Of a stretch of 64,000 bases of DNA, positions 9,263 to 61,794 are shown piece after piece. Each line of letters begins with the position of its first letter. The first letter of the stretch is position 1. The notes under the pieces are model-generated. The model did not search any database. It saw only the letters and a list, made by a program, of their open reading frames with translations, and was not told the origin of the DNA. Position numbers and translations under genes: made by a program. This DNA comes from Kitasatospora sp. Root107 (lineage in GTDB: Bacteria > Actinomycetota > Actinomycetes > Streptomycetales > Streptomycetaceae): contig NZ_LMCT01000012.1 in the NCBI RefSeq assembly GCF_001424875.1, positions 218,679 through 282,678 on the forward strand, read 5' to 3'.

Positions 9263-11368
<2,106 letters not shown>

Positions 11369-11407
11369 GGTGGCTCGTTCTCTCTCTGTCTAGTGACGGG
11401 GTTAGGA

Positions 11408-11878
11408 CTACCAGCGGTAGTGCGCGAAGGCCTTGTTGGACTCGGCCATCTTGTGAGTGTCCTCGCGACGCTTCACGGAAGCACCGAGGCCATTGCTGGC
11501 GTCGAGGATCTCGTTGAGCAGACGCTCGGTCATGGTCTTCTCGCGACGGGCGCGGGAGTAGCCGACCAGCCAGCGCAGCGCCAGGGTGTTGGCGCGGCCC
11601 GGACGGACCTCGACCGGCACCTGGTAGGTGGCGCCACCGACGCGGCGGGACTTCACCTCAAGGGTGGGCTTGACGTTCTCAAGCGCGCGCTTGAGGGCGA
11701 CCACGGGGTCGGCACCGGTCTTCTCGCGGACACCCTCGAGGGCGCCGTAGACGATCCGCTCGGCGGTGGAGCGCTTGCCGTGGAGCAGGATCTTGTTGAC
11801 CAGCGAGGTCACAAGCGGCGAGCCGTAAACCGGGTCGATGATGACCGGGCGCTTCGGGGCAGGACCCTTACGAGGCAT
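11408..11878 (-). CDS. rpsG: 30S ribosomal protein S7
   Basis: 156 residues starting [10 protein letters not shown], typical of actinobacterial S7, a primary 16S rRNA binding protein and organiser of the 30S head. The start codon lies 2 nt after the rpsL stop, and its AAGGAG sits inside the last codons of rpsL, so the two genes are translationally coupled. Confidence 0.97.
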
Positions 11879-11880
11879 TC

Positions 11881-12252
11881 TTACTTCTCCTTCTTGGCGC
11901 CGTAGCGGCTACGAGCCTGCTTGCGGTTCTTGACACCCTGGGTGTCGAGCGAGCCGCGGATGATCTTGTAGCGGACACCAGGAAGGTCCTTCACACGGCC
12001 ACCGCGCACCAGCACGATGGAGTGCTCCTGCAGGTTGTGGCCCTCACCCGGAATGTAGGCGGTGACCTCGATCCCGCTGGTGAGGCGCACACGGGCCACC
12101 TTGCGAAGCGCGGAGTTCGGCTTCTTCGGGGTGGTGGTGTACACACGCGTGCAAACACCGCGGCGCTGAGGGGAACCCTTCAGCGCGGGCGTCTTGTTCT
12201 TCTCGACCTTGTCCTGCCGGCCCTTTCGGACCAGCTGCTGGATCGTAGGCAC
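11881..12252 (-). CDS. rpsL: 30S ribosomal protein S12
   Basis: 123 residues starting at a GTG preceded by GGAG; the first codons give [11 protein letters not shown] as in all S12 proteins. TPKKPNS at 41-47 and VKDLPG near 88 carry lysines at the positions where streptomycin-resistance changes occur (about K43 and K88), so the allele looks wild type. It is the first gene of the str operon. A much longer upstream in-frame reading is rejected because it has no coding character and S12 is this size everywhere. Confidence 0.98.
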
Positions 12253-12468
12253 CGTTTCTCCGTTTTCTGTGTGCCAAGGCTGCGTAAAACTAACCTGCGG
12301 TGACCCCAACACTCCGACCCACGCGGTCGGGTGTGTTGAGCCTCTTTCGAGGGCGGAATCCATGAGCCGATGTGCAGCGGCGGCGCTCACGGAGTGGTGA
12401 ACACTCCGGTACGGCGGCCGGTCTGCTGGCACGCACAAGGACCCGGGGACACCCCAGGCACAGATCAG

Positions 12469-12497
12469 AGCGTACCTAGCGCATCGGCGCCGGTCAA
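12469..12497 (-). promoter_or_regulatory. Candidate str operon promoter
   Basis: On the minus strand TTGACC (12492-12497) and TACGCT (12469-12474) are separated by 17 nt, a good match to the principal sigma factor consensus. It would start transcription near 12460, leaving an rpsL leader of roughly 200 nt. The rest of 12253-12551 holds only a short hairpin near 12315-12340 and no gene. Confidence 0.6.
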
Positions 12498-12551
12498 AAC
12501 AAATGCAACGCCGCAGCTCGGCCCCCGAAGAGCGGTTGCATCCGGCATACC

Positions 12552-13082
12552 TCAGGTGATGCTGCCGAGCAACCCGAGCAGGACCAACAGTGCCCAGCCA
12601 CCGACCGACAGCCAGCCAAGCACCAGCCCGGCGGTGGCCATCCCGTCGCCCTCCTCGCCGCTGCCGCGCAGCTGGCTCTTGGCGAGGTGGCCGGTCACCA
12701 CGGCGGGGATGCCGAACATCCCGAAGCTCGGCAGGCAGAGCAGGCCCAGCACCAGCGAGGCGACGGCCAGCGGGTTGTTCCTCGGCCGGGGCGTGTACAC
12801 CGGCTGCATCATCATCGGCGGCCCGGCCATCGGACCCATCATCGGCAGCGCCACCGGGCCGACCGGCAAGTCCGAGACCAGGTAGGCGAGCTGACCGTAC
12901 GTCTTGGCCCGCTGCACCCCGTCGAACCGGGCGCTGTACTCGTTCGCCGACAGGCGCCCCTCGGCGTACGCGGCCTTGATCACGTCCACCGCGCGCTCGC
13001 GGTCGGTGTGCCCGGCGCGCATGGCGGCCTGACCGGCGCCGTACGGCTGCGGCTGCTGCGGTCCCCATGACTGCATGCTCAT
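12552..13082 (-). CDS. DUF1707 and DUF4190 domain membrane protein
   Basis: 176 residues. The first 70 contain [24 protein letters not shown]...EYSARFD, the DUF1707 pattern common in actinomycete membrane proteins. After a Pro/Met-rich linker come two hydrophobic segments ([14 protein letters not shown] and [20 protein letters not shown]) of the DUF4190 type. The function is unknown; such proteins are membrane anchored with a small cytoplasmic domain. The first of two close ATGs is chosen because AGGAGG lies 9 nt upstream. It is divergent from the ABC exporter at 13248. Confidence 0.8.
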
Positions 13083-13247
13083 CCCGACCCACCTCCTGAC
13101 GGACTCTCATGGTGCATGACGAACGGCACACCCGCACAGTTGCACGTTCACCCGATCGGAGCAGACAAACCAGTCGTTCGCGGGGTGCCGCTGCCGGTCC
13201 CACCTCTGAAAAGCTGACCGCACATCCGTACCAACAGGAGTACCCAC

Positions 13248-14009
13248 ATGACACCTGCCGTCAGCATCCACAACCTGTGGAAGCGCTTCGGCGACCACGC
13301 CGCGGTCGCAGGACTCACCCTGGACCTGCCCGCCGGCTCCTTCATCGGCCTGGTCGGCCCCAACGGGGCGGGCAAGACCACCACCCTCTCGATGGTCACC
13401 GGCCTGCTCAGGCCGGACCAGGGCACCGTGCTGGTGCACGGCGCCGACGTCTGGACCGACCCGGTCGGGGTCAAGGCGCGGATCGGCATCCTGCCCGAGG
13501 GCCTGCGGATGTTCGAGCGGCTGAGCGGGCGTGAACTGCTCCAGTACAACGGTCGGCTGCGCGGTCTGCCCGGTGCCGAGGTGGACCGCCGGGCCGAGGA
13601 GCTGCTGACCGTCCTCGACCTGTCCGCTGCCGCGGACAAGCTGGTCGCCGACTACTCCACCGGGATGCGGAAGAAGATCGGTCTGGCCGCCGCGCTGCTG
13701 CACAACCCGGACGTGCTGTTCCTGGACGAGCCGTTCGAGGGCGTCGACCCGGTCTCCGCGCAGACCATCCGGGGTGTGCTCAAGCGGTACGCCGCCAGCG
13801 GCTCCACCGTGGTCTTCTCCAGCCATGTGATGGAGCTGGTCGAGCAGCTCTGCGACTGGGTCGCGGTGATAAACGCGGGCCAGGTGATCGCCCAGGGCCC
13901 GCTGGACACCGTCCGGGGCGAGCGCTCGCTGCACACTGCCTTCCTGGACCTGATCGGGGTCCGCGAGCAGGACGAGCAGAGCCTGGACTGGCTGGGCGAG
14001 GCCCGATGA
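13248..14009 (+). CDS. ABC transporter ATP-binding protein (ABC-2 type exporter)
   Basis: 253 residues with Walker [10 protein letters not shown] at 37-45, signature YSTGMRKK, Walker [14 protein letters not shown] and a switch histidine in SSHVMELVE. The start ATG follows an AACAGGAG-like site. It energises export through the adjacent permease, whose ATG overlaps this gene's stop (ATGA). The substrate is not evident; architecture is that of the CcmA/DrrA-like exporter ATPases. Confidence 0.92.
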
Positions 14010-15592
14010 ACGCCCCTGCGGACCGCGTGGTGGTCCGGACCCTCGTCTCGCTCAAGCTCCGGCTGCTCGCCAACGGGCTGCGCCGCAGCCCCGGCCGCCG
14101 GGCGCTGTACATGGCCGGTTCGGTGCTCGGCGTGCTCTTCACCGCCGCGATCGCGACCGCCTTCGCCTTCCTGAACGGACACGCCGGCGCCGCGGACGCG
14201 GCTGTGATGCTCACCACTTCGCTGGTGATCGGCTGGGCCGCGCTGCCGCTCTTCCTGTTCAGCAGCGACGAGAGCTCCGACCCGACCCGGCTCACCATGC
14301 TGCCGCTGCGGCCGGGCCCGCTGCTGCGCGGCACCCTGCTGGCCGCGCTGATCGGGCCGGGACCGGTGATCGCGCTGGTGCTGCTGTCCGGCGCCGTGAT
14401 CGCCGCCGCCGCGGGGGCGGTGTCGGTCCCGTTCGCCGTGCTCGGGGTACCGCTGACGCTGGCCTGCCTGGTCACCCTCTCCCGCTCGGTCGCGGCCGGG
14501 AACGCCAAGCTGCTCTCCAGCCGCCGGGGCAAGGACTTCGCCATCTTCGGCGGTCTGCTGTTCGCGGTCCTGATCCAGGTCGGCAACCTGGCCTCGCAGA
14601 GCGTCCTGGGCCGGCCCGGCGAAGAGGGCCTCGACCTCTCACCGTTGAAGCCGTTCGCCTCGGTGCTGCGCTGGATCCCGCCGGTCAGCGCCCTGGACTC
14701 GGCCCGTACCGCCGGGGACTCCGTCCCGCTGGCGCTGCTCCAGCTGGCCTCCACCGGCGCGCTGCTGGTGCTGCTGCTGCGCTGGTGGCAGCGGAGCCTG
14801 CAGGACCTGATGGTGACCGCCGACGCGTCGACCCTGATCACCGCCAGGTCGGTCGGCCGGTCCTCCTCGCGGACCTTCTTCCCGGACGGCCGGGTCGGCG
14901 CGGTGATGCAGCGTCACCTCCGGTACGCCTGGCGCGAACCCCGGGCCAAGGCGGCGGTCTTCACCAGCATCGGGATGACCCTGGTGTTCTGCGTGCTCTC
15001 GGTGGTGCAGGGCTGGGGCACGGTGTACGTGGTGGTGATGGCCGGTCTGATGCTCGGCCTGCAGATGGTCAACCTCTTCGGCATGGACGGCTCGGCGTTC
15101 TGGATGGTCTCCAGCACGCTGGCCACCCCGGCCGACGCCCGGGACGAGCTGCGCGGCCGGGCCTACGCGGTGCTCTCGTACGCCGTCCCGGCCGCCACCG
15201 TGCTCGGCCTGGTGCTGGCCGCCGCCACCGGGCAGTGGGCCGAGCTGGCCCCCGCGCTGGGCCTGACCTACGCCGCGCTCGGCGCCGGGGTCGGCCTCGG
15301 CGCACTGCTCAGCGTGCTGGCGCCGTACGCGATGCCGGCCGACTCCAACCCGATGCGGAACGCCGCGCCGGGCCAGAGCGGGGTGGTGGTGCTGAACACC
15401 TTCGGCTCGATGATCGGAGTGTTGATCGTCACTGCCCCGGTCGGGCTGCTGGTGTTCGTCCTGCCGGGTTGGGCGCTGCTGCCGATCGGCCTCGGCTTCG
15501 GGGTGCTGCTGGCTCTGGGCGGCACCCGGTTCGCCGCCGGGCGGCTGCTGGACCGGCTGCCGGAGATCCTGGCCACCGCGATCGAGCGCTGA
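14006..15592 (+). CDS. ABC-2 type exporter permease
   Basis: 528 residues with a basic N-terminus and about ten to twelve hydrophobic segments arranged in two halves with a central cytoplasmic region near residues 270-310. It is coupled to the ATPase by a 4-nt overlap and followed by a strong hairpin, so the pair forms a two-gene unit. No substrate-specific motif is visible. Confidence 0.85.
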   Translation: MNAPADRVVVRTLVSLKLRLLANGLRRSPGRRALYMAGSVLGVLFTAAIATAFAFLNGHAGAADAAVMLTTSLVIGWAALPLFLFSSDESSDPTRLTMLPLRPGPLLRGTLLAALIGPGPVIALVLLSGAVIAAAAGAVSVPFAVLGVPLTLACLVTLSRSVAAGNAKLLSSRRGKDFAIFGGLLFAVLIQVGNLASQSVLGRPGEEGLDLSPLKPFASVLRWIPPVSALDSARTAGDSVPLALLQLASTGALLVLLLRWWQRSLQDLMVTADASTLITARSVGRSSSRTFFPDGRVGAVMQRHLRYAWREPRAKAAVFTSIGMTLVFCVLSVVQGWGTVYVVVMAGLMLGLQMVNLFGMDGSAFWMVSSTLATPADARDELRGRAYAVLSYAVPAATVLGLVLAAATGQWAELAPALGLTYAALGAGVGLGALLSVLAPYAMPADSNPMRNAAPGQSGVVVLNTFGSMIGVLIVTAPVGLLVFVLPGWALLPIGLGFGVLLALGGTRFAAGRLLDRLPEILATAIER

Positions 15593-15596
15593 ACCC

Positions 15597-15632
15597 GATG
15601 CCCGGGCCCGGAGTGTCCCGGGCTCGGGCATC
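15597..15632 (+). terminator. Terminator after the ABC exporter pair
   Basis: Starting 4 bp after the permease stop, GATGCCCG... pairs with ...CGGGCATC over about 15 bp with a short loop. It separates the exporter genes from the DUF2786 gene. Confidence 0.7.
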
Positions 15633-15671
15633 ATTGCCAGTTCAACCCCCAACTTCTTGAGGCGATCCCCC

Positions 15672-16937
15672 GTGGCCCAGCCGTCCGCCGCCGAAGCCCT
15701 GGTCACCCAGGCCGCCACCCAGGTCGTCGCCGCCTCCCCCGACACCCTCGACCTGGCGCTCGACACCGCCGCGTCGATGCTGGCGGCTGCCGACTGGCCC
15801 GAGGTCAGCCGGGCGCTGATCGCCCAGGTCGAGCGCACCGTCACCCGTGCCTGGGCGATCGGTTGGCGGCCCGCCGACCTGGTCCGGCTGGTCCGACGCG
15901 AGCTGGGCGCGGTGCACCAGCCGCTGGCGGTCGACCTGATCGCCGCCGAGAACCGCAGCCACCCGGCGGCCACCCTGGACCGGCGCTGGCACGAGCAGCT
16001 GCGCGAGCTGGCCGTCGAGATCTGGTGGTCCGGCGACGAGGCGTACCTCGCCGACTTCGCGACCCGGCACCGGCTGGACCGGTTCGCGCTGGCCACCGCC
16101 GTGCTGGAGCTGAACCGGCTCTGGGCGCAGCTCCCGCCGGTCACCCCGGTCGGCCCCACCCCCGGTCGGGCCACCGTGTACCGGCCGAACGGTCCGATGC
16201 CGGGCGAGCCCCGGATGCTGTCCCGGATCCGGGCGTTGCTCGCCAAGGCCGAGTCCACCGAGTTCCCCGAGGAGGCCGAGGCGCTCACCGCCAAGGCCCA
16301 GCAGCTGGTCGCCCAGCACTCCATCGACGAGGCCCTGCTGACGGCCAGTCAGCCCTCCCGGGACACCCCGGGAGCGCTGCGGATCGGGGTGGACAACCCG
16401 TACGAGAGCCCGAAGGCGATGCTGCTCGACGCGGTGGCCTCCGCGAACCGCTGCCGGACGGTCTGGGCCAAGGAGTTCGGCTTCTGCACCATCATCGGCT
16501 TCGACTCCGACCTGGACGCGGTCGAGCTGCTCTACACCTCGCTGCTGGTGCAGGCGAACGCCTCCATGCACCGGGCCGGCAGCCGGCACCACAAGGAGGG
16601 CGCGGCCAGGACCAAGTCCTTCCGGCAGTCCTTCCTGATCGCGTACGCCACCCGGATCCGCGAGCGGCTGGCCGCCGCCACCGAGGAGACCACCCGCGAG
16701 GCCGCGGCCGGCCGGCACCTCAACCCGGACGGCAGCAGCGAGCAGCTCACCCCCGACGAGCGCCTGCTGCCCGCGCTGGCCGCCCGCGAGCAGGCGGTCG
16801 ACCACGCCGTCGGCGAGATGTTCCCCAAGCTCACCACCCAGCGGGTCCGGATCAGCAACGCCCACGGCTGGCACGAGGGCCGCGCCGCCGCCGACCGGGC
16901 CGCCCTCCACCACGGCACGGGGGCCATCGAGCGGTAA
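15672..16937 (+). CDS. DUF2786 domain protein
   Basis: 421 residues from a GTG at 15672 preceded by TGAGG at 9 nt; a TTG five codons earlier is possible but would place that site inside the gene. The middle section SRIRALLAKAESTEFPEEAEALTAKAQQLVAQH is the DUF2786 pattern, often fused to metalloprotease-like domains. The C-terminal half (SYLLVQANASMHRAG..., then AAREQAVDHAVGEMFPKL) is typical of the long actinomycete versions. The function is unknown. The gene is monocistronic between a terminator and a repeat element. Confidence 0.82.
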   Translation: MAQPSAAEALVTQAATQVVAASPDTLDLALDTAASMLAAADWPEVSRALIAQVERTVTRAWAIGWRPADLVRLVRRELGAVHQPLAVDLIAAENRSHPAATLDRRWHEQLRELAVEIWWSGDEAYLADFATRHRLDRFALATAVLELNRLWAQLPPVTPVGPTPGRATVYRPNGPMPGEPRMLSRIRALLAKAESTEFPEEAEALTAKAQQLVAQHSIDEALLTASQPSRDTPGALRIGVDNPYESPKAMLLDAVASANRCRTVWAKEFGFCTIIGFDSDLDAVELLYTSLLVQANASMHRAGSRHHKEGAARTKSFRQSFLIAYATRIRERLAAATEETTREAAAGRHLNPDGSSEQLTPDERLLPALAAREQAVDHAVGEMFPKLTTQRVRISNAHGWHEGRAAADRAALHHGTGAIER

Positions 16938-16970
16938 GGCCTGGGCAGGTGCTCGGCCCGCTACGGAGTC

Positions 16971-17111
16971 AGGGGCTCGGGGAACTGCGACGCCGACCTC
17001 GTACGAGGTGATCCGTACATGGGCGGTCAGGCACCTTCGCATTGGCCCCGCCGGCCACGAACCGTCGCCCCGGCGGCGGAGCCGCACATCAGCAGAGCCC
17101 TGAGCCCCTGG
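16971..17111. repeat. Interspersed palindromic element, copy 1
   Basis: The left end AGGGGCTCGGGGAACTGCG and the right end GAGCCCCTGG form inverted termini. The inner blocks ...CGACGCCGACCTC and GGTCAGGCACCTTCGCA are shared nearly word for word with the second element at 50599-50693. This copy is longer (about 141 bp) because of extra GC-rich sequence before the right arm. It sits directly beside the remains of an ADP-ribosylglycohydrolase gene. Confidence 0.75.
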
Positions 17112-17112
17112 G

Positions 17113-17595
17113 CAGTGCAACCCATTGCCAGGACGGACCTGCATCGCTCGTACCAGCACTGGTTGCTGACGCAGCATCGGGCGGGCGCCGGGGAACGCCT
17201 GTCTGAGCGGGCTGGGGCCCGGGGCTTCCTTCGAACTGGCCGCGCAGTGCGCGCAGCTGACTCACGGTCACCCGACCGGGCAGCTGGCGGCGGGTGCGTT
17301 CGCGGCGCTGGTCGACCTGGTGCTGACCGAGGCATTGGCGGCGACCGTCGGGCTGGGCTGGATCGCCGAGGAGTGCCCGGCCATCGCGGTGACCGCCCCC
17401 GACGCCCGCTCGGCGCTGCTGCTCTCGGTCAACCACTCGGGCGACAGCGACTCGACCGGCGCGGTCTGCGGCAACCTGGCCGGCGCGCTGTACGGCGCAG
17501 CGGCGCTGCCCGCCGACTGGCTGGCGGTGGTCGAGGGCCGGGAGTTGATCGTCCGGATGGCCGATGCGCTGCTGGAGCGGGCCGAACTAGCCTGA
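17113..17595 (+). pseudogene. Decayed ADP-ribosylglycohydrolase
   Basis: Two reading frames carry pieces of one DraG-family protein. SYQHWLLTQ (17148-17174) matches the family's AYxRWLxTQ stretch. It is followed at once, in another frame from 17170, by RAPGNACLSGL, then FELAAQCAQLTHGHPTGQLA and near the end NHSGDSDSTGAVCGNLAGA, the C-terminal metal-binding motif. The N-terminal third with the DDT motif is missing and replaced by the palindromic element, and residues between the two pieces are lost. No start codon serves the second frame. An intact relative lies at 25137-26138. Confidence 0.75.
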
Positions 17596-17600
17596 CGGGT

Positions 17601-18023
17601 ATGGCCGAGCCGAAGACCAAGCCGACCGCCGCCGACCCCGCCGCCTTTCTGGCCGCCGTGCCGGACGAGCGGCGGCGGGCCGACGCCGAGGCGCTCTGCG
17701 CGCTGATGGCGGAGGTGACCGGGGCGCCGCCGGTGATGTGGGGCAGCTCGATCGTCGGCTTCGGCACGTACCACTACCGGGGCGCGAGCGGGCGCAGCGG
17801 CGACTGGCCGCCGGTCGGCTTCTCGCCGCGCAAGCAGGCGTTGACGCTGTACGTGGCCGAGGGCTTCGAGCCGCACCAGGATCTGCTGGCCCGGCTCGGC
17901 CCGCACACCACCGGCAAGGGCTGTCTGTACGTCAAGCGGCTGGACGCCCTTGACGAGACGGCCCTGCGCGAGCTGATCGAGCGGGGCTTCGCCGCGTACG
18001 ACGGGAAGACGATCAGCTCCTAG
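17601..18023 (+). CDS. DUF1801 domain protein
   Basis: 140 residues starting ATG at 17601, 5 bp after the decayed gene. The core PAAFLAAVPDERRRADAEAL, PPVMWGSSIVGFGTYHY and GFSPRKQALTLYV matches the DUF1801 (YdhG-like) fold, whose function is unknown. The C-terminus GKGCLYVKRLDALDETALRELI is also typical. It is convergent with the GntR regulator, 2 bp apart. Confidence 0.85.
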   Translation: MAEPKTKPTAADPAAFLAAVPDERRRADAEALCALMAEVTGAPPVMWGSSIVGFGTYHYRGASGRSGDWPPVGFSPRKQALTLYVAEGFEPHQDLLARLGPHTTGKGCLYVKRLDALDETALRELIERGFAAYDGKTISS

Positions 18024-18025
18024 AC

Positions 18026-18871
18026 CTAGATCGTCGGCTGCACGTCCCCTGTGGTCAGGGTGTGGCTGCTGCGCGGGGTGGCCAGGTCGCCGGGTGGGAT
18101 GCCGGGGTGGTGGCGGTCGGCGCCGGGGGCCGGGGGCGGGGCGGTCTCGCCGAGGGTGATGCGGGACAGGATGCGGTAGCGGTCGCCTCGGTAGAGCGAG
18201 TGGACGTACTCGACCGGGCGGCCGTCGTGGTCGGTGGTGAGGCGTTCGAAGTGCAGGGCGGGTGAGAAGGCCGGGACGCCGAGCAGGTGGGCCTCCTTCT
18301 CGCTGACCACGGTGGGTTCGATCGACTGGACGGCCTGGCGCACCCGGACGCCGTGGCGCTCGCGGAGCAGTTCGTAGAAGTCGCCGCTCTCCATGTCGGC
18401 GGGCTGCAGCCCCGGCACCAACTCGGCCGGTACGTGCAGGTATTCGATCGCCATCGGTTCGCCGTCGACCAGCCGCAGCCGGGCGATGTAGGCGACCTCG
18501 GCCGTCGGGGAGAGGCGGAGCTTGCGGCCGACCCGGGCGCCGGCCCGGACCACCGAGAACTCCAGCACCCGCCCGGCCCAGGAGCCGCCGGCCCGGGGCA
18601 GGGTGAAGCCGTGCTCCTCGGGAGCGGCGGTCAGCTCCTGAGTGATCTTCGCGGGGGCGACGAACATGCCCCTGCCGTGCTCCCGGACGATCAGCCCGGT
18701 GCTCACCAGCTCGTCCACCGCCGACCTCAAGGTGGGCCGGGAGACGCCGAGTTGCTCGCAGAGCGTGCGTTCGGAAGGGATCGGGTCACCGGCCGAGCGG
18801 GCCTCCACCAGGTCCCGCAGGTAGTCCCGTACCCGGGTTCGCTTGTACGCCGGGCCCACCGCCTCCGCCAT
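18026..18871 (-). CDS. GntR/HutC family regulator of the das-like locus
   Basis: 281 residues. The N-terminal winged helix shows PSERTLCEQLGVSRPTLR and RGMFV, and the UTRA ligand domain follows, with GEPMAIEYLHVP and PVEYVHSLYRGDRYRI near the end as in DasR. The ATG at 18871 is preceded by AAGGAG at ideal spacing. It is divergent from the sugar transporter operon. In S. coelicolor dasR lies next to dasABC in the same arrangement and responds to glucosamine-6-phosphate; whether this protein is the true orthologue or a local paralogue cannot be settled here because the DNA-binding region differs noticeably from the DasR I remember. Confidence 0.85.
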   Translation of the reverse strand: MAEAVGPAYKRTRVRDYLRDLVEARSAGDPIPSERTLCEQLGVSRPTLRSAVDELVSTGLIVREHGRGMFVAPAKITQELTAAPEEHGFTLPRAGGSWAGRVLEFSVVRAGARVGRKLRLSPTAEVAYIARLRLVDGEPMAIEYLHVPAELVPGLQPADMESGDFYELLRERHGVRVRQAVQSIEPTVVSEKEAHLLGVPAFSPALHFERLTTDHDGRPVEYVHSLYRGDRYRILSRITLGETAPPPAPGADRHHPGIPPGDLATPRSSHTLTTGDVQPTI

Positions 18872-57196: not shown

Positions 57197-57799
57197 ATGG
57201 GTCAGTACACGCTCCCCGATCTGCCCTACGACTACTCCGCGCTGGAGAAGGCGATGTCCGCCGAGATCCTCGAGCTGCACCACTCCAAGCACCACGCCGC
57301 CTACGTGGCCGGCGCCAACACCACCCTCGAGCAGCTCGCCGAAGCCCGCGAGAAGGAGAACTTCGGCGGCCTGGTCGGCCTCCAGAAGACCCTCGGCTTC
57401 CACCTCTCCGGCCACGTCCTGCACTCCCTCTTCTGGGAGAACCTCTCCCCCGACGGCGGCGACCGCCCCGACGGCGCCCTCGGCGACGCCATTACCGAAC
57501 ACTTCGGCAGCTTCGAGGCCTTCAAGAAGCAACTCACCGCCGCCACCGTCGGCGTCCAGGGCTCAGGCTGGGGCATCCTCTCCTGGGAACCCCTCGGCCA
57601 ACGCCTCATCGTCGAGCAGGTCTACGACCACCACGGCAACGTCGGCCAGGGCACCACCCCGCTCCTCGCCTTCGACGCCTGGGAGCACGCCTACTACCTC
57701 CAGTACCGCAACGTCCGCCCCGACTACGTCACCCGCCTCTGGGACATCGTCAACTGGACCGACGTCACCACCCGCTTCACCACCGCCACGGGCGCCTGA
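57197..57799 (+). CDS. sodF: Iron/manganese superoxide dismutase
   Basis: 200 residues from the ATG at 57197 with AGGAG 11 nt upstream. [17 protein letters not shown], the metal His near [33 protein letters not shown] and the final metal site [11 protein letters not shown] are the Fe/Mn-SOD signatures. It converts superoxide to oxygen and peroxide in the cytoplasm. The Nur box upstream and the high similarity to Streptomyces sequences favour the iron form sodF; Fe against Mn cannot be told from motifs alone. Confidence 0.93.
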
Positions 57800-57860: not shown

Positions 57861-57916
57861 CCTGCGTAGCCCCGGCCCCGCCCTCAGATGTCACTCGAGT
57901 GCCATACCGTACGGCC

Positions 57917-59608
57917 ATGGAACTGGGCGCTATCACGCGAGCAGACGTGCTCGAAGTACTCGGAGAGCACGACACCCTCGGCGAAGAAACCTTCCGAAGC
58001 ACCCACGGCTACCGTGAGGCCTCCGGGTTCGTAGTCGCACATGAAGGCCAGGAGTACGAGGCCAAGGCCATCGCGGGCGTCGCGCACCGTTACACGTTCG
58101 GGAGAGCTCTCAAGCCGAACGAGTTCAGCGGCGACCAGCAGAACGCAGTCGCTTGGCTGGAACGCGAGGGCTTCACCGTGCTGAAGGTCTCCAAGTCCTT
58201 CGTCAGGCGCATTGGCGATGTGCGCCCCAAGAAAGCTGGCGATTCCCTAGCCACCCACAAGGCCCTGTTGCTGCTGTGGGCCATCGGGCGTGCGCTGGCA
58301 GGCGCGCCTCGCGCAGCTTCCTGGTCTGACACCCGGTCTGCACTGTCCCCGCTGCTGGAAAAGTACGGAGATACGCAGGACGGTGCCAAGGACGCGCTCT
58401 ACCCATTCGCGACGCTCACGCGCGATGACCTGTGGGTCATGCCGCAGGTCACCGCTACTCGTCCGGGCTCCGTCAGCCAGGAACTGCGTCACACCCTGGA
58501 ATCGCTGAACCCGAAAGCCGGACTGCCGGAGAGCGACTACGAGTTGCTGAAGGCATACCCAGCAGTCGCTGCCGAGGCAGCGGCGGGGCTCCTGCTCCGC
58601 TACTTCTCCCCACTGCCGGGCGACCTCCTAGAAGACCTGGGACTGCACGACCTGCTGACGAGCCGGTGGGCCAACGCACTGCGTCCACTCTGCGGGGAAC
58701 GTTTCAAAGACCGAACCGCCATCTGGCAGACCTACGGCGGGCAGAAGGTGGCCGGAATCGGCCACCTGAACGATGGCATCCTCAGCGTGTTCTCGGACGA
58801 CAAGGGCCCGTATGCCGATGGCCGACTCCCCGACACCAACTGGATCTCCTACGTTGGCGACGGACTCTCAGGCGACCAGCAACTTGTCGCCGGCAACCAA
58901 GTCCTGACAGAGCATCAAGCTGCGCAACGGCCCTTGCGCTACTGGCACATGCCATATAAGGGCGAGTTCACCTTCGAGACGTGGGCTGTCGTCGTCCAGC
59001 TTCGTCGACGCTGGGGGCAGGGGAAGGACAAGGCGTGGCGCCGTGAATTCCTCTGGATCCTGGCGCCCGTCCCCTCGCCCTCCCCTGAGAGCTGGCCAAC
59101 CGATGTACTGGAGGCGCTCGCCAGCGACACCGGCGAGATCCATGACGACACGACGGACTACCAGCCAGGCGACGTCGACCCCGCCCAACGGTCCACACAG
59201 GAAACCGACCAGGCCGCATACCGGCGCCTGGCCGAGGCTGCCGAGCGCCGGTCCGCAGAGCGACACAACGCCAGGCAGCAGTCCACCGTGGACCGTCACC
59301 TACGGAGCCGCAGCGCCCGAGCCGCGGTGATACGCCGCAGCGGGGGGCGCTGCGAAAACCCAGGCTGCGCCGGCCACCCCTCAGAACTCACCACCGCCGG
59401 ACGACCAATCCTGCAGGTAGACCACGTCCACGACCTGGCCAAGGGTGGGATAGACCTCCCACCCAACATGATTGCCCTCTGCCCCAACTGCCATGCACTG
59501 AAGACACATGGTGCAAACAAGGATCGGCTCAGCCGCACCCTCGCAAAGACCGCCCGTCGCCTGCACCTAGCGGCGATCAGCGACGAAGCAGACTCGCTCC
59601 CCCTCTGA
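57917..59608 (+). CDS. ScoMcrA-type type IV restriction endonuclease (SBD-SRA-HNH)
   Basis: 563 residues from the ATG at 57917. Residues 1-100 form an N-terminal domain. Residues about 110-180 look like the sulfur-binding domain of phosphorothioate-dependent enzymes (HKALLLLWAIGRAL, LYPFATLTRDDLW). Residues about 262-385 resemble an SRA domain (YGGQKVAGIGHL, FSDDKGPYADG, GDGLSGDQQL). The C-terminal HNH nuclease has H503, N517 and H526 and a zinc knuckle C479, C484, C522, C525. The catalytic residues that I recall for S. coelicolor ScoMcrA (H508, N522, H531) are offset by exactly 5 at all three places. The enzyme should cut phosphorothioated and 5-methylcytosine DNA. Codon use is less GC-rich than its neighbours. 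Confidence 0.85.
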   Translation: MELGAITRADVLEVLGEHDTLGEETFRSTHGYREASGFVVAHEGQEYEAKAIAGVAHRYTFGRALKPNEFSGDQQNAVAWLEREGFTVLKVSKSFVRRIGDVRPKKAGDSLATHKALLLLWAIGRALAGAPRAASWSDTRSALSPLLEKYGDTQDGAKDALYPFATLTRDDLWVMPQVTATRPGSVSQELRHTLESLNPKAGLPESDYELLKAYPAVAAEAAAGLLLRYFSPLPGDLLEDLGLHDLLTSRWANALRPLCGERFKDRTAIWQTYGGQKVAGIGHLNDGILSVFSDDKGPYADGRLPDTNWISYVGDGLSGDQQLVAGNQVLTEHQAAQRPLRYWHMPYKGEFTFETWAVVVQLRRRWGQGKDKAWRREFLWILAPVPSPSPESWPTDVLEALASDTGEIHDDTTDYQPGDVDPAQRSTQETDQAAYRRLAEAAERRSAERHNARQQSTVDRHLRSRSARAAVIRRSGGRCENPGCAGHPSELTTAGRPILQVDHVHDLAKGGIDLPPNMIALCPNCHALKTHGANKDRLSRTLAKTARRLHLAAISDEADSLPL

Positions 59609-59698: not shown

Positions 59699-59801
59699 AA
59701 TAAGGGCCCCTGGCCGGCATTTCCGCCCGGCGAGGGGCCCTTATTCGCCCTACAGCTGATGCAGGGTTCGATCCTGCGCAGCTTGCGCGGCAGATTTACA
59801 G
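59699..59801. repeat. Attachment-site copy: 3' half of tRNA-Tyr plus its terminator
   Basis: Two blocks match the intact tRNA-Tyr locus. The hairpin 59699-59745 (AATAAGGGCCCCT and its complement) corresponds to the terminator at 61662-61705. The segment from about 59755 corresponds to the tRNA 3' half, including a T arm with one base change and a 22-bp identical core (59780-59801 against 61741-61762) that covers the anticodon arm and variable arm. The match stops at the anticodon stem, as expected for an integrase crossover inside a tRNA gene. Confidence 0.85.
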
Positions 59802-59852
59802 GCGCTGGCCAAACTGCGTTTGACCTGCTGCGGACCAACAACGCACAAACCA

Positions 59853-59872
59853 TGGTCCGCGATTGGTCCGGA
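59853..59872. repeat. 20-bp repeat near left att copy
   Basis: TGGTCCG repeated twice (TGGTCCGCGA then TTGGTCCGGA). The same 20-bp sequence with two changes occurs at 61553-61572 in the same orientation. A possible arm-type integrase binding site. Confidence 0.55.
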
Positions 59873-60809
59873 TCGTGGCATTCCAACCCCGCCACTCCCC
59901 GGATCTCTCACGCAGTCAGCGAATTAGGACCTTTCGTCCCGAAGCAACTCGGGCAACTAGACGCTCAATACTACTGGGGGCTCTTTCGCTCGCGACTACG
60001 CCCCTCACGGTCGCCGGACCTGTGCAATCGCAGCATGGCAAATACCTGGCAGCGCCCGCGCCGGCACCCGGAGCACCACCACGATGATGATCAACATCGT
60101 GGGCCAAGCGAGGGACTGCAGGGTTGACAGGTCATGGGGCAGAGGCGTCATGCTCACTGTGATGGTTCCCTTCGTAGGACTGTCATAGCCCGCCACGCCG
60201 CGCATGGTTGTCCAGACCCCTGCGGCGTCGGCGGGCTTCGTTATGTTCCCTTAGCTTGAGGCACGAGCTAGGGCGCCTACCACTGGCTGACCCTGGCGAA
60301 GCCTGGCGAAGTGGTCGTGGTGCATGGCGGGACTATGGCGGTTTTTTGCCTCATGAGTCACAAGAGTTCCTCCCAGCCCCATACGCCACAGGAGATATAC
60401 AACAAATGCTCGAATGGTGACGTGAGCAACATTTGACTCGCGGGTGGTGGAGCGGTTTTGCCGGTGCCCTGTCTGATCTGGGTCCGAGCATGATCGGGGG
60501 GCCGTAAGCTCATCGCGTCTCGGTCAGGGCCTTGCTCGGTGCGGGTCCCGGTCCCGACACGTGGGTAACCGTGGAACCGCCCGCCGCCAGCCACGGCGGG
60601 GTTGGCCACCCCTCTGACCGTTCCTCGCCTGGCGCGGCTGGCCGCCGCCGAAGCGGGGCGAAGACAGGAGCGACGGCGAGCGGCTGAGGCCGCGCGCGCC
60701 TTGAACCCGTAGAGAAGATTTTTGCGCACTCCTTCTCATCACTCCCTTTCCTCGCTCTCCCATGCACTTCCGGCCCGCCCGCCGCTAGGCTCGGCAGCTT
60801 GAGCTGACT

Positions 60810-61562
60810 GTGCTTCACATCCTGTGCGGGGCCCGCGGATACCATCACCCAGCTCGTGACCCGCGCCGCCGTAGCTCTGGGTGCGCAGACCACCTACGTG
60901 ACGAACCAGATGATGGAGCGGAGCAGGCGAAGGACGGACTCCAGGTCCGCTGGGATAAGAAGACGCTCGACACCTACGTCGAGTACGCCGGTGATATTCG
61001 GTCCTGCGTCTACGCAAATGTGCTGGCCTACTCGGCAACTCACGACATCAGGGCGATGCCGCGCACCGAACATGACCTGCTGATGGACCTGACCGATGCG
61101 GAGCGCCGTCGGGCCCTGGCCTTTGAGCAGCTGATGATGCTCGCTGACGAGGACCGGATCGAGGCCGGCCACGCGCCGGTCCTGGTGCGGCTGCTCCGCG
61201 AGCACATCGAGAAGTACGGCACAGCGCCGGACGAGCGGCTGTTCCAGACCTTCGGGGGCGGCCTGGTCCAGGAGAGTTCGAACGGTGTCGTCTGGTCCAA
61301 GGCCCATGCCGAGGCACTGACTCCCGAACAGCGCGAGACGTCGCTCTGCGAGCGTCCGTACGACTGGCGGCACGCCGGGATCTCAGGCTGGCTGGCTTCC
61401 GGTGTCGCGCCGGCCGAGTGCGCTCGCCGGGCCGGGCACAGCATTGCCGTGCTCCACCGGGTCTATGCGAAGTGCATCCACGGGGATGAGGAGCGGGCCA
61501 ATCAGCTGATCGGCCAGTGGCTCGACGGCCGCGCTCGGCCGGCCCCTGAGTCTGGTCCGTGA
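60810..61562 (+). pseudogene. Truncated and chimeric tyrosine recombinase (integrase)
   Basis: The C-terminal 130 residues are a tyrosine recombinase of the pSAM2/SLP1 type: HIEKYGTAPDERLFQ, then R187 in YDWRHAG, H210 in RRAGHS and the nucleophile Y219 in LHRVYAKC. The first catalytic Arg and the N-terminal DNA-binding domains are missing. The N-terminal part (about residues 40-110, with WDKKTLDTYVEYAGDIRSCV) does not look like an integrase and may come from another element gene by deletion. The start is uncertain. It lies next to tRNA-Tyr and reads toward it. Confidence 0.75.
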
Positions 61563-61572
61563 CTGGTCCGGA
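61553..61572. repeat. 20-bp repeat near right att copy
   Basis: TGGTCCGTGA then CTGGTCCGGA, matching 18 of 20 bases at 59853-59872 in direct orientation. It overlaps the last codons of the integrase fragment, where arm sites of such elements are often found. Confidence 0.55.
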
Positions 61573-61661
61573 AGTGCTGGTCGGACCTGCGATCCGGGCG
61601 AGACGGGGTGAGACAAGCCGCACAAAACGGGTGACTTTTGTGAAGGTCATCCAGACACAAC

Positions 61662-61705
61662 AGAAGGGCCCCTGACCGGCGTTTCCGCTGGTCAGGGGCC
61701 CTTCT
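61662..61705 (-). terminator. Terminator of tRNA-Tyr
   Basis: A perfect 16-bp inverted repeat (AGAAGGGCCCCTGACC and its complement) with a 12-nt loop starts 9 bp after the tRNA 3' end. Its diverged copy at 59699-59745 travels with the att repeat. Confidence 0.8.
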
Positions 61706-61713
61706 TTATCCTG

Positions 61714-61794
61714 TGGCTGGTGCAGGGTTCGAACCTGCGTAGCTTGCGCGGCAGATTTACAGTCTGCTCCCTTTGGCCGCTCGGGCAACCAGCC
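61714..61794 (-). tRNA. tRNA-Tyr (GTA)
   Basis: 81 nt on the minus strand, class II with a long variable arm. Acceptor GGCTGGT / ACCAGCC, discriminator A, anticodon loop CTGTAAA with GTA, T arm GGTTCGAACCC. CCA is not encoded. The 3' half is the attachment site of the adjacent element remnant, and the intact gene restores function after integration. Confidence 0.95.

Follow-up and report, generated by a model that had tools for sequence, protein, structure and literature searches.

A ScoMcrA-type endonuclease with an altered base-reading loop in the tRNA-Tyr region of Kitasatospora sp. Root107

The DNA analyzed in this study (hereafter the window) is a stretch of 64,000 nucleotides from Kitasatospora sp. 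Root107 (contig NZ_LMCT01000012.1, positions 218,679 to 282,678). At a distance of 2.1 kb from a tRNA-Tyr gene it contains a gene that, judged by homology and a structural model, very probably encodes a ScoMcrA orthologue and thereby a modification-dependent restriction endonuclease of type IV. While this kind of enzyme is already known, two testable oddities stand out in this member, namely a changed base-reading loop and the coexistence of the gene with a C5-methyltransferase gene in the same genome. The enzyme is a natural variant of a structurally solved restriction enzyme that is changed at the residues reading the bases next to the sulfur, and its loop offers a clear test of what sets the sequence specificity of phosphorothioate recognition.

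Identity and domain architecture of the enzyme

The open reading frame (ORF) starts with ATG and is open throughout its 563 codons. A phmmer search against PDB sequences identified full-length ScoMcrA (5zmm_A) with an expectation value (E) of 1.6e-220, covering query residues 5-551 at approximately 60% identity, as well as the ScoMcrA sulfur-binding domain (SBD) with the SRA domain (5zmn, E 2.9e-137), the SBD on its own (5zmo, E 5.4e-49), the SBD of SprMcrA (E 8e-15) and, for the HNH part, EcoKMcrA (E 1.4e-9). PADLOC labeled the protein mREase_IV PDLC03662 (type IV restriction, E 1.7e-223). Searches of Pfam-A at E 1 retrieved HNH models only, one of them above its cut-off, and the NCBIfam family of phosphorothioated-DNA-binding restriction proteins matched the SBD part with E 6.8e-16, which is below its cut-off. 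Since EcoKMcrA matches by its HNH part alone, an EcoKMcrA-type enzyme was rejected.

An AlphaFold2 model calculated from an alignment of 26 sequences (the window enzyme and 25 relatives) had a mean predicted local distance difference test score (pLDDT) of 81.9 and a predicted template modeling score (pTM) of 0.75. When this model was submitted to Foldseek, the six best rows were all chains of 5ZMM, followed by SBDs solved with phosphorothioated DNA, plant and mammalian SRA domains and the HNH domain of EcoKMcrA. VIA-align superimposed 497 residues of the model on 5zmm_E (Z 43.1, root-mean-square deviation 4.8) and recovered both reader folds, i.e., the SBD (Z 25.6 to 5zmo, 20.9 to 7cc9 and 12.6 to 8h0l) and the SRA fold (Z 12.5 to the SUVH5 SRA domain 3q0d over 122 residues). 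According to phmmer, Foldseek and VIA-align, the four-domain architecture is complete and in the order head, SBD, SRA, HNH. Identity to ScoMcrA in the alignment amounts to 68% for the SRA domain, 64% for the HNH domain, 55% for the head and 54% for the SBD. All seven HNH and zinc residues are kept, with H503/N517/H526 and C479/C484/C522/C525 corresponding to H508/N522/H531 and C484/C489/C527/C530 of ScoMcrA, for which the roles of these residues are described in the available text of PMC6224610. A previous sequence-only reading of this DNA had assigned the protein to the ScoMcrA type, had named an N-terminal domain, SBD-like and SRA-like segments and an HNH nuclease with zinc knuckle, and had proposed a comparison with the ScoMcrA crystal structure; the searches, the residues and the comparison, in which 5ZMM is the best match, bear all of this out.

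In all 15 full-length genes examined (the window gene and the loci L037-L050; L and G numbers are our handles for loci and genomes) the motif TGTCA-N11-TACSGT ends a few bases before the start codon, which supports the start codon at 57917. The position of the motif suggests a leaderless mRNA or a regulator site.

In the part of the ScoMcrA work available to us, no function is assigned to the head domain (PMC6224610). This head of about 90 amino acids (KAIAGVAH/KAVAGVAH) is also found at the start of another protein family (L013, L014, L016, L017, L018, L020, L021, L029), where it is 46-54% identical to the head of the window enzyme and followed by a middle part that differs from ScoMcrA. Those members of this family that were read through have an HNH end (e.g., L013, L014, L017), and the match of L017 to 5zmm is confined to the head (E 3.8e-20). 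As the head thus occurs on other HNH proteins, it is a shared module. Additionally, endonucleases fusing an untyped domain to an SBD and an HNH end were seen at L030:400-2361 (genome G063) and L025 (genome G033), with the HNH end of L030 being TagI-like (E 1.3e-31) and a head domain standing in front.

Sulfur pocket and base-reading loop

Residues were compared in an alignment of 30 sequences including the window enzyme, of which 27 have an alignable loop; frame-broken (L050, L065, L066, L068), partial (L069) and partial or weak (L070-L079) relatives were dropped beforehand, and L006 was aligned separately. At the positions of the ScoMcrA sulfur pocket (H116, R117, Y164, P165, A168) the window enzyme has H, K, Y, P and T. 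Exchange of R117 for K leaves binding intact, K being usual at this position, while A168 is not strictly conserved and its exchange for isoleucine cut binding by 51%, as far as the available text of PMC6224610 describes it. The change to T at this position may matter for binding by the window enzyme.

The most pronounced change concerns the loop that reads the bases of GpsGCC, S187-RGRR191 in ScoMcrA, which is SQELR in the window enzyme, with R190 replaced by Leu. R190 is Arg in all 26 other sequences with an alignable loop, leaving the window enzyme as the sole one with Leu. According to the same partly available source, R190 is one of the two arginines reading GpsGCC, its exchange for alanine lost 82% of binding, and the base-reading residues are variable among SBD homologues (PMC6224610), so that the SQELR loop concerns specificity and not family membership. 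Changes in the contact surface comprise R109A, D160K, A168T and R190L, and the acidic patch carries Q for E156 and K for D160. The phmmer alignment also shows acidic residues that are new at ScoMcrA positions 154 and 161. The ratio of SBD to SRA conservation is 0.80 and the lowest of 15 full-length sequences, followed by the Kitasatospora xanthocidica orthologue with 0.84 and the remaining 13 sequences with 0.90-0.99. Because R190 is Leu and the SBD is the one most diverged relative to its own SRA domain, reading of GpsGCC cannot be assumed to carry over from ScoMcrA. The sequence-only reading had expected cutting of phosphorothioated DNA; this is consistent with the pocket, which is kept, and is rendered insecure by the loss of R190. 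Probably the enzyme either reads phosphorothioates less well at GpsGCC or is directed at a different context.

That the SBD reads phosphorothioates in another or wider context than GpsGCC is a serious possibility, even if it falls short of being probable. The intact pocket in combination with the SQELR loop would agree with it, as would the location of E156Q and D160K in the patch in which E156R/D157R widened ScoMcrA binding to GpsAAC and GpsATC (PMC7470945, available in part) and the fact that the other Kitasatospora enzyme (L037) has changed the same patch (Q, K, Q). However, E156Q alone gave no wider binding (Table 2 of the same source), the new acidic residues at 154 and 161 offset the loss of charge, and no structure of such a loop with DNA was found.

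It is less probable, and on balance rather doubtful, that the SBD is a scaffold lacking useful phosphorothioate reading, which would make the enzyme in effect an SRA-HNH nuclease directed against modified cytosine only. The exchanges R190L, D160K, R109A and A168T in the contact surface and the fastest divergence of the SBD relative to the SRA domain point in this direction, and relatives have taken this course. Three Nocardiopsis sequences lack loop and pocket (R117, Y164 and P165 changed in 3/3, H116Q in 2/3) and L006 (genome G067) has lost Y164, P165 and the loop, with HNH domains still recognizable in the trio and in L006. Unlike in these enzymes, H, K, Y and P of the pocket are intact in the window enzyme, and SprMcrA reads phosphorothioate with an HGD motif, so a changed loop need not equal a loss (PMC7470945, available in part).

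Apart from the SBD, the alignment revealed that the catalytic N522 position is A, T, F or V in 10/10 aligned headless enzymes from Streptomyces and Kitasatospora (L051-L059, L067). This position is N in 14/14 aligned four-domain enzymes besides the window enzyme and in 5/5 headless enzymes from other genera.

The tRNA-Tyr site and its decayed element

The 3′ half of the tRNA-Tyr gene together with its terminator constitutes one of two attachment (att) copies in the window (Table 1). A 31-nucleotide piece of this sequence was found, with up to three mismatches, at only two places in the window, the att copy and tRNA-Tyr, and in none of 100 shuffles. Placement of the enzyme gene inside the surviving att pair was rejected, as the att copy separates it from tRNA-Tyr. 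The 2-kb remnant between the two att sequences retains only the C-terminus of its integrase (phrog_1, E 9.7e-5) and lacks a replication initiator, an FtsK-type transfer gene and a complete integrase. A 10-nucleotide match to tRNA-Tyr on the other side of the enzyme gene, the score of which was attained by 18 of 2000 shuffles, would be a weak candidate for the scar of an older attR.

Table 1. Features of the window around the enzyme gene.
Feature	Position	Strand	Basis or remark
Fe/Mn superoxide dismutase (SOD), chromosomal flank	57197..57799	+	collinear with sister species to this point
10-nt exact match to part of tRNA-Tyr 3′ half	57861..57870	+	between SOD and enzyme
Promoter-like motif TGTCA-N11-TACCGT, 6 nt before start codon	57889..57910	+	common to 14/14 orthologues examined
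ScoMcrA-type modification-dependent endonuclease, 563 aa (predicted)	57917..59608	+	phmmer, PADLOC, model
Head domain, residues 1 to ~88	57917..58180	+	55% identical to ScoMcrA
SBD, ~residues 89-257; pocket H114, K115, Y162, P163, T166; base-reading loop S187-Q-E-L-R191	58181..58687	+	alignment, model; roles from PMC6224610 (available in part)
SRA domain, ~residues 258-437	58688..59227	+	best conserved of the domains; alignment, model
HNH nuclease domain, zinc Cys and catalytic H503, N517, H526	59228..59605	+	Pfam, alignment, model
att copy, 100 nt	59702..59801	+	84% identical to tRNA-Tyr 3′ half and terminator hairpin
Remnant of an actinomycete integrative element between both att sequences	59802..61663	.	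lacks 9.0 kb of the sister's element; sister comparison
Chimeric ORF: 5′ cargo-gene part, last 128 codons integrase C-terminus	60810..61562	+	junction ~61175/61176
tRNA-Tyr (gta); 3′ half and terminator (61664-61762) = one att copy	61713..61794	-	tRNA scan

In a sister species (G013), whose tRNA-Tyr region is 98% identical, collinearity with the window extends to the stop codon of the SOD gene. Approximately 90 nucleotides further on it has an att copy, adjoined by an element of some 12 kb. Beside the att copy this element encodes a pair of GmrSD_N and HEPN proteins, and further genes specify a regulator of the GntR type, an FtsK/SpoIIIE transfer protein, a RepSA of the pSAM2 type and an integrase of 461 amino acids (XerD-like, E 3e-6, below the model cut-off). 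Both ends of this element have their match in the window, which lacks 9.0 kb of it (sister positions 9513-18535, in reversed orientation), and this loss explains the chimeric ORF. The pair of the sister species lies directly inside attR (L110:11233-12994, minus strand) and consists of GmrSD_N (PF03235, PADLOC NsnA / PD-T4-2_A) and a RiboL-PSP HEPN protein.

The tRNA-Tyr/YajQ locus was found in 70/70 genomes of the genus and, according to the match table, in 13 of them, including that of Root107, the contig bears another att copy no more than 70 kb away. Nine loci of this kind from other species were fetched (L110, L118-L125), and selected genes near the att copy were typed in seven of them (not in L120 and L123). 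A type I restriction-modification set (L119), an AIPR/AbiU gene (L122) and the GmrSD_N and HEPN pair (L110) were found there, as were ORC-CDC6-like ATPases (L121, L124) and an NB-ARC-TPR protein (L125), for which PADLOC gave no match; at L118 only a helix-turn-helix match below cut-off was obtained. From these seven loci, the slot beside attR at tRNA-Tyr tends to hold defence-like cargo, which suggests that the site swaps such cargo between related species.

A tRNA scan covered 33 named loci with an enzyme relative, out of 43 found, with flanks of up to 10 kb per side (less than requested in eight), a range in which a tRNA-Tyr could be missed. Four of the 33 relatives lie in the same tRNA-Tyr region, namely L044 and L050 with four domains, the latter frame-broken, and the headless L051 and L065. 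In L051 the tRNA-Tyr itself is visible; the others were placed by tRNA-Met, tRNA-Thr and a neighboring amidohydrolase gene, and since their att copy is on the far side, the enzyme gene is inside there. In the genus, the four-domain enzyme was found in 2/70 genomes, in G069 on a contig other than that of tRNA-Tyr, which points to horizontal gain. Phage sequences yielded no relative of the enzyme at E 1e-10, and plasmid sequences yielded one partial match at E 1e-30; a scan of genome contigs with a single sequence gave no confirmed result. Four copies (L050, L065, L066, L068) match in two frames. A second relative with two frames and a missing head start was seen 4 kb from a four-domain gene in Streptomyces sp. 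NBC_00620 (L038:4222-5647).

The sequence-only reading had placed the gene at the chromosomal position corresponding to that of scoMcrA. This applies to the tRNA-Tyr region, but not to the precise position, as the window gene has the att copy between itself and the tRNA, unlike scoMcrA, which is located near attR of SLP1 in tRNA-Tyr, where the SLP1 repeat comprises 112 bp (PMC3009677, available in part).

Expected activity, modification genes of carrier genomes, and known systems

If, as we infer, the enzyme is expressed and cuts DNA, a dimer would scan entering DNA, with the SRA domain recognizing 5-methyl- or 5-hydroxymethylcytosine and the SBD recognizing Rp phosphorothioate, and the HNH domain would then cut near the recognized mark. 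Given the missing R190 and the faster divergence of the SBD compared with the SRA domain, cytosine modification would be the more reliable trigger of the two. Plasmids intended for this host would, with an active enzyme, best be made in dam dcm E. coli. Probably an SLP1/pSAM2-like element at tRNA-Tyr carried the gene in as cargo, and the decay of the elements at this site left it stranded. The simplest account would be tandem accretion, in which the enzyme gene arrived with an older element whose outer att sequence was lost, and a younger element integrated at tRNA-Tyr and decayed afterwards.

It had been predicted that the host should be unable to carry dnd phosphorothioation. A search for DndC (TIGR03183) at E 1e-3, which did not extend to DndA, B, D, E or SspABCD individually, gave no match in the 73 contigs of its genome, but this is weak support for the prediction because 369 of 394 family genomes are without dndC, too. 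Carriers of the enzyme were defined as the 31 genomes with a three- or four-domain relative, including the four frame-broken ones and leaving out L069 and L070-L079, with L044 being in the same genome as L042. No dndC was found among these 31 carriers, compared with 25/394 family genomes, which is not significant (p 0.24), and an exclusion of dnd by carriers could consequently not be shown at the population level. The 13 SBD carriers of the genus were all absent from the dndC genomes listed (at least 7), with p 0.33 on the assumption that all 70 genus genomes were covered. In the available text of PMC7461809, SBD-HNH enzymes are described as rarely adjoining dnd genes.

A different picture emerged for C5-methyltransferase genes. 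PF00145 at E 1e-25 matched in 1/26 family carriers vs. 221/388 family genomes (p 2.8e-8), in a comparison in which the carriers are mostly Streptomyces, the 388-genome control may contain carriers and phylogeny is ignored; for carriers overall the count was 2/31 vs. the same control (p 1.4e-8). Among the family carriers the sole exception is L066, in which the match to the enzyme is split over two frames. Within the genus the same threshold gave 1/6 carriers vs. 43/64 genomes (p 0.024), and the contrast was smaller at the looser E 1e-10, with 9/26 carriers vs. 48/64 other genus genomes (p 6e-4). This rarity of C5-methyltransferase genes in carriers argues that the SRA function is real in ScoMcrA-type enzymes. 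The keeping of methyltransferases out of genomes by type IV enzymes can thereby be expressed in numbers, with its exception named; in the literature on type IV restriction and methyltransferases, no paper was found on the exclusion of C5-methyltransferases by ScoMcrA-type enzymes.

Several observations weigh against the proposed explanation. The genome of Root107 itself has PF00145 genes on contig C6, at E 3.0e-30 and 2.5e-5. The former appears intact, with PC, ENV, QxLR..RR and GN motifs seen by eye. An active, broadly 5-methylcytosine-dependent nuclease should not tolerate this gene if it is expressed, though the methyltransferase need not be Dcm-like and may have another target. Furthermore, the link of the enzyme gene to the element is indirect, as it lies outside the surviving att pair. 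Finally, within the interior of the model, confidence is lowest at the base-reading loop (residues 179-186, pLDDT <50), and a two-residue insertion loosens its alignment, so that two alignments place the loop differently; neither of them yields the RR pair.

At the level of genes, the prediction that the host should be unable to carry Dcm-like methylation does accordingly not hold for this genome, which is an exception to a rule that holds across the other carriers. On contig C6 (L130, L131, also L031, L032) the two C5-methyltransferase-like genes have as neighbors a gene resembling PAPS reductases and genes for a TraG/TraD coupling protein and a DnaB-like protein, on account of which the region is likely to be a conjugative element. 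One could speculate, with considerable reservation, that the ScoMcrA-type family excludes C5-methyltransferases and that the window enzyme, as the one intact copy of 27 family carriers with a strong match (E 1e-25), has given up GpsGCC reading (R190L and neighbors) and perhaps acquired a narrower SRA context, so that the host would keep the element-borne methyltransferase and restrict other modified DNA.

It appears quite improbable that the gene has no function and is a passenger decaying along with its island, although 9.0 kb and the greater part of the integrase are gone from the neighboring element, the four relatives mentioned above look frame-broken and a C5-methyltransferase gene coexists in the genome: the frame of 563 amino acids is open, catalytic and zinc residues as well as the upstream motif are kept, and the SRA domain is 68% identical to that of ScoMcrA. 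A homing-type or generic HNH nuclease without modification reader, as which the protein could pass if judged by Pfam alone, was rejected and hardly deserves consideration, being refuted as far as homology goes by the full-length match to ScoMcrA in sequence and fold, both readers included.

The ScoMcrA-type enzyme of the window can be compared with several known systems. It resembles ScoMcrA itself (also ScoA3McrA, SCO4631 of Streptomyces coelicolor; 5ZMM, 5ZMN, 5ZMO) in the nearly equal length, the order of the four domains, the identity of about 60%, the catalytic, zinc and sulfur-pocket positions and the tRNA-Tyr region of the chromosome (PMC3009677, available in part). It differs in having SQELR for SRGRR, T for A168, K for R117 and K for D160, in the position of its gene outside the surviving att pair next to a decayed element, and in a host with a C5-methyltransferase gene. 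The K. xanthocidica orthologue (L037, genome G069) shares 63% identity, the four domains and the GTDB genus, whereas it has kept the RR pair (SKPRR), its Y164 is replaced by V and its loop 34 is altered, and its gene lies near tRNA-Val and tRNA-Trp on a contig other than that of tRNA-Tyr.

With SLP1/Gi11 and pSAM2-type elements the site shares the tRNA-Tyr 3′ end as att sequence, with a direct repeat of 100 nucleotides in the window and 112 bp in SLP1 (as given in the available part of PMC3009677), and RepSA, an FtsK-type Tra protein and an integrase in the sister's copy; in contrast to such elements, only a remnant of 2 kb is left in the window, from which the genes for transfer and replication and a complete integrase gene are missing. 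Among other modification-dependent enzymes, SprMcrA (7CC9, 7CCD, 7CCJ) has a homologous SBD (E 8e-15, Z approximately 20), but, as described in the available texts of PMC7461809 and PMC7470945, it is an SBD-HNH enzyme without SRA domain that uses an HGD motif for base contacts. EcoKMcrA is similar in its HNH domain (Z 9.0 over 93 residues) and has another N-terminal reader (PMC7461809, available in part), while TagI is similar in its SRA-like part (Z 11.8 over 127 residues) and, according to the available text of PMC6212794, is an SRA-HNH enzyme.

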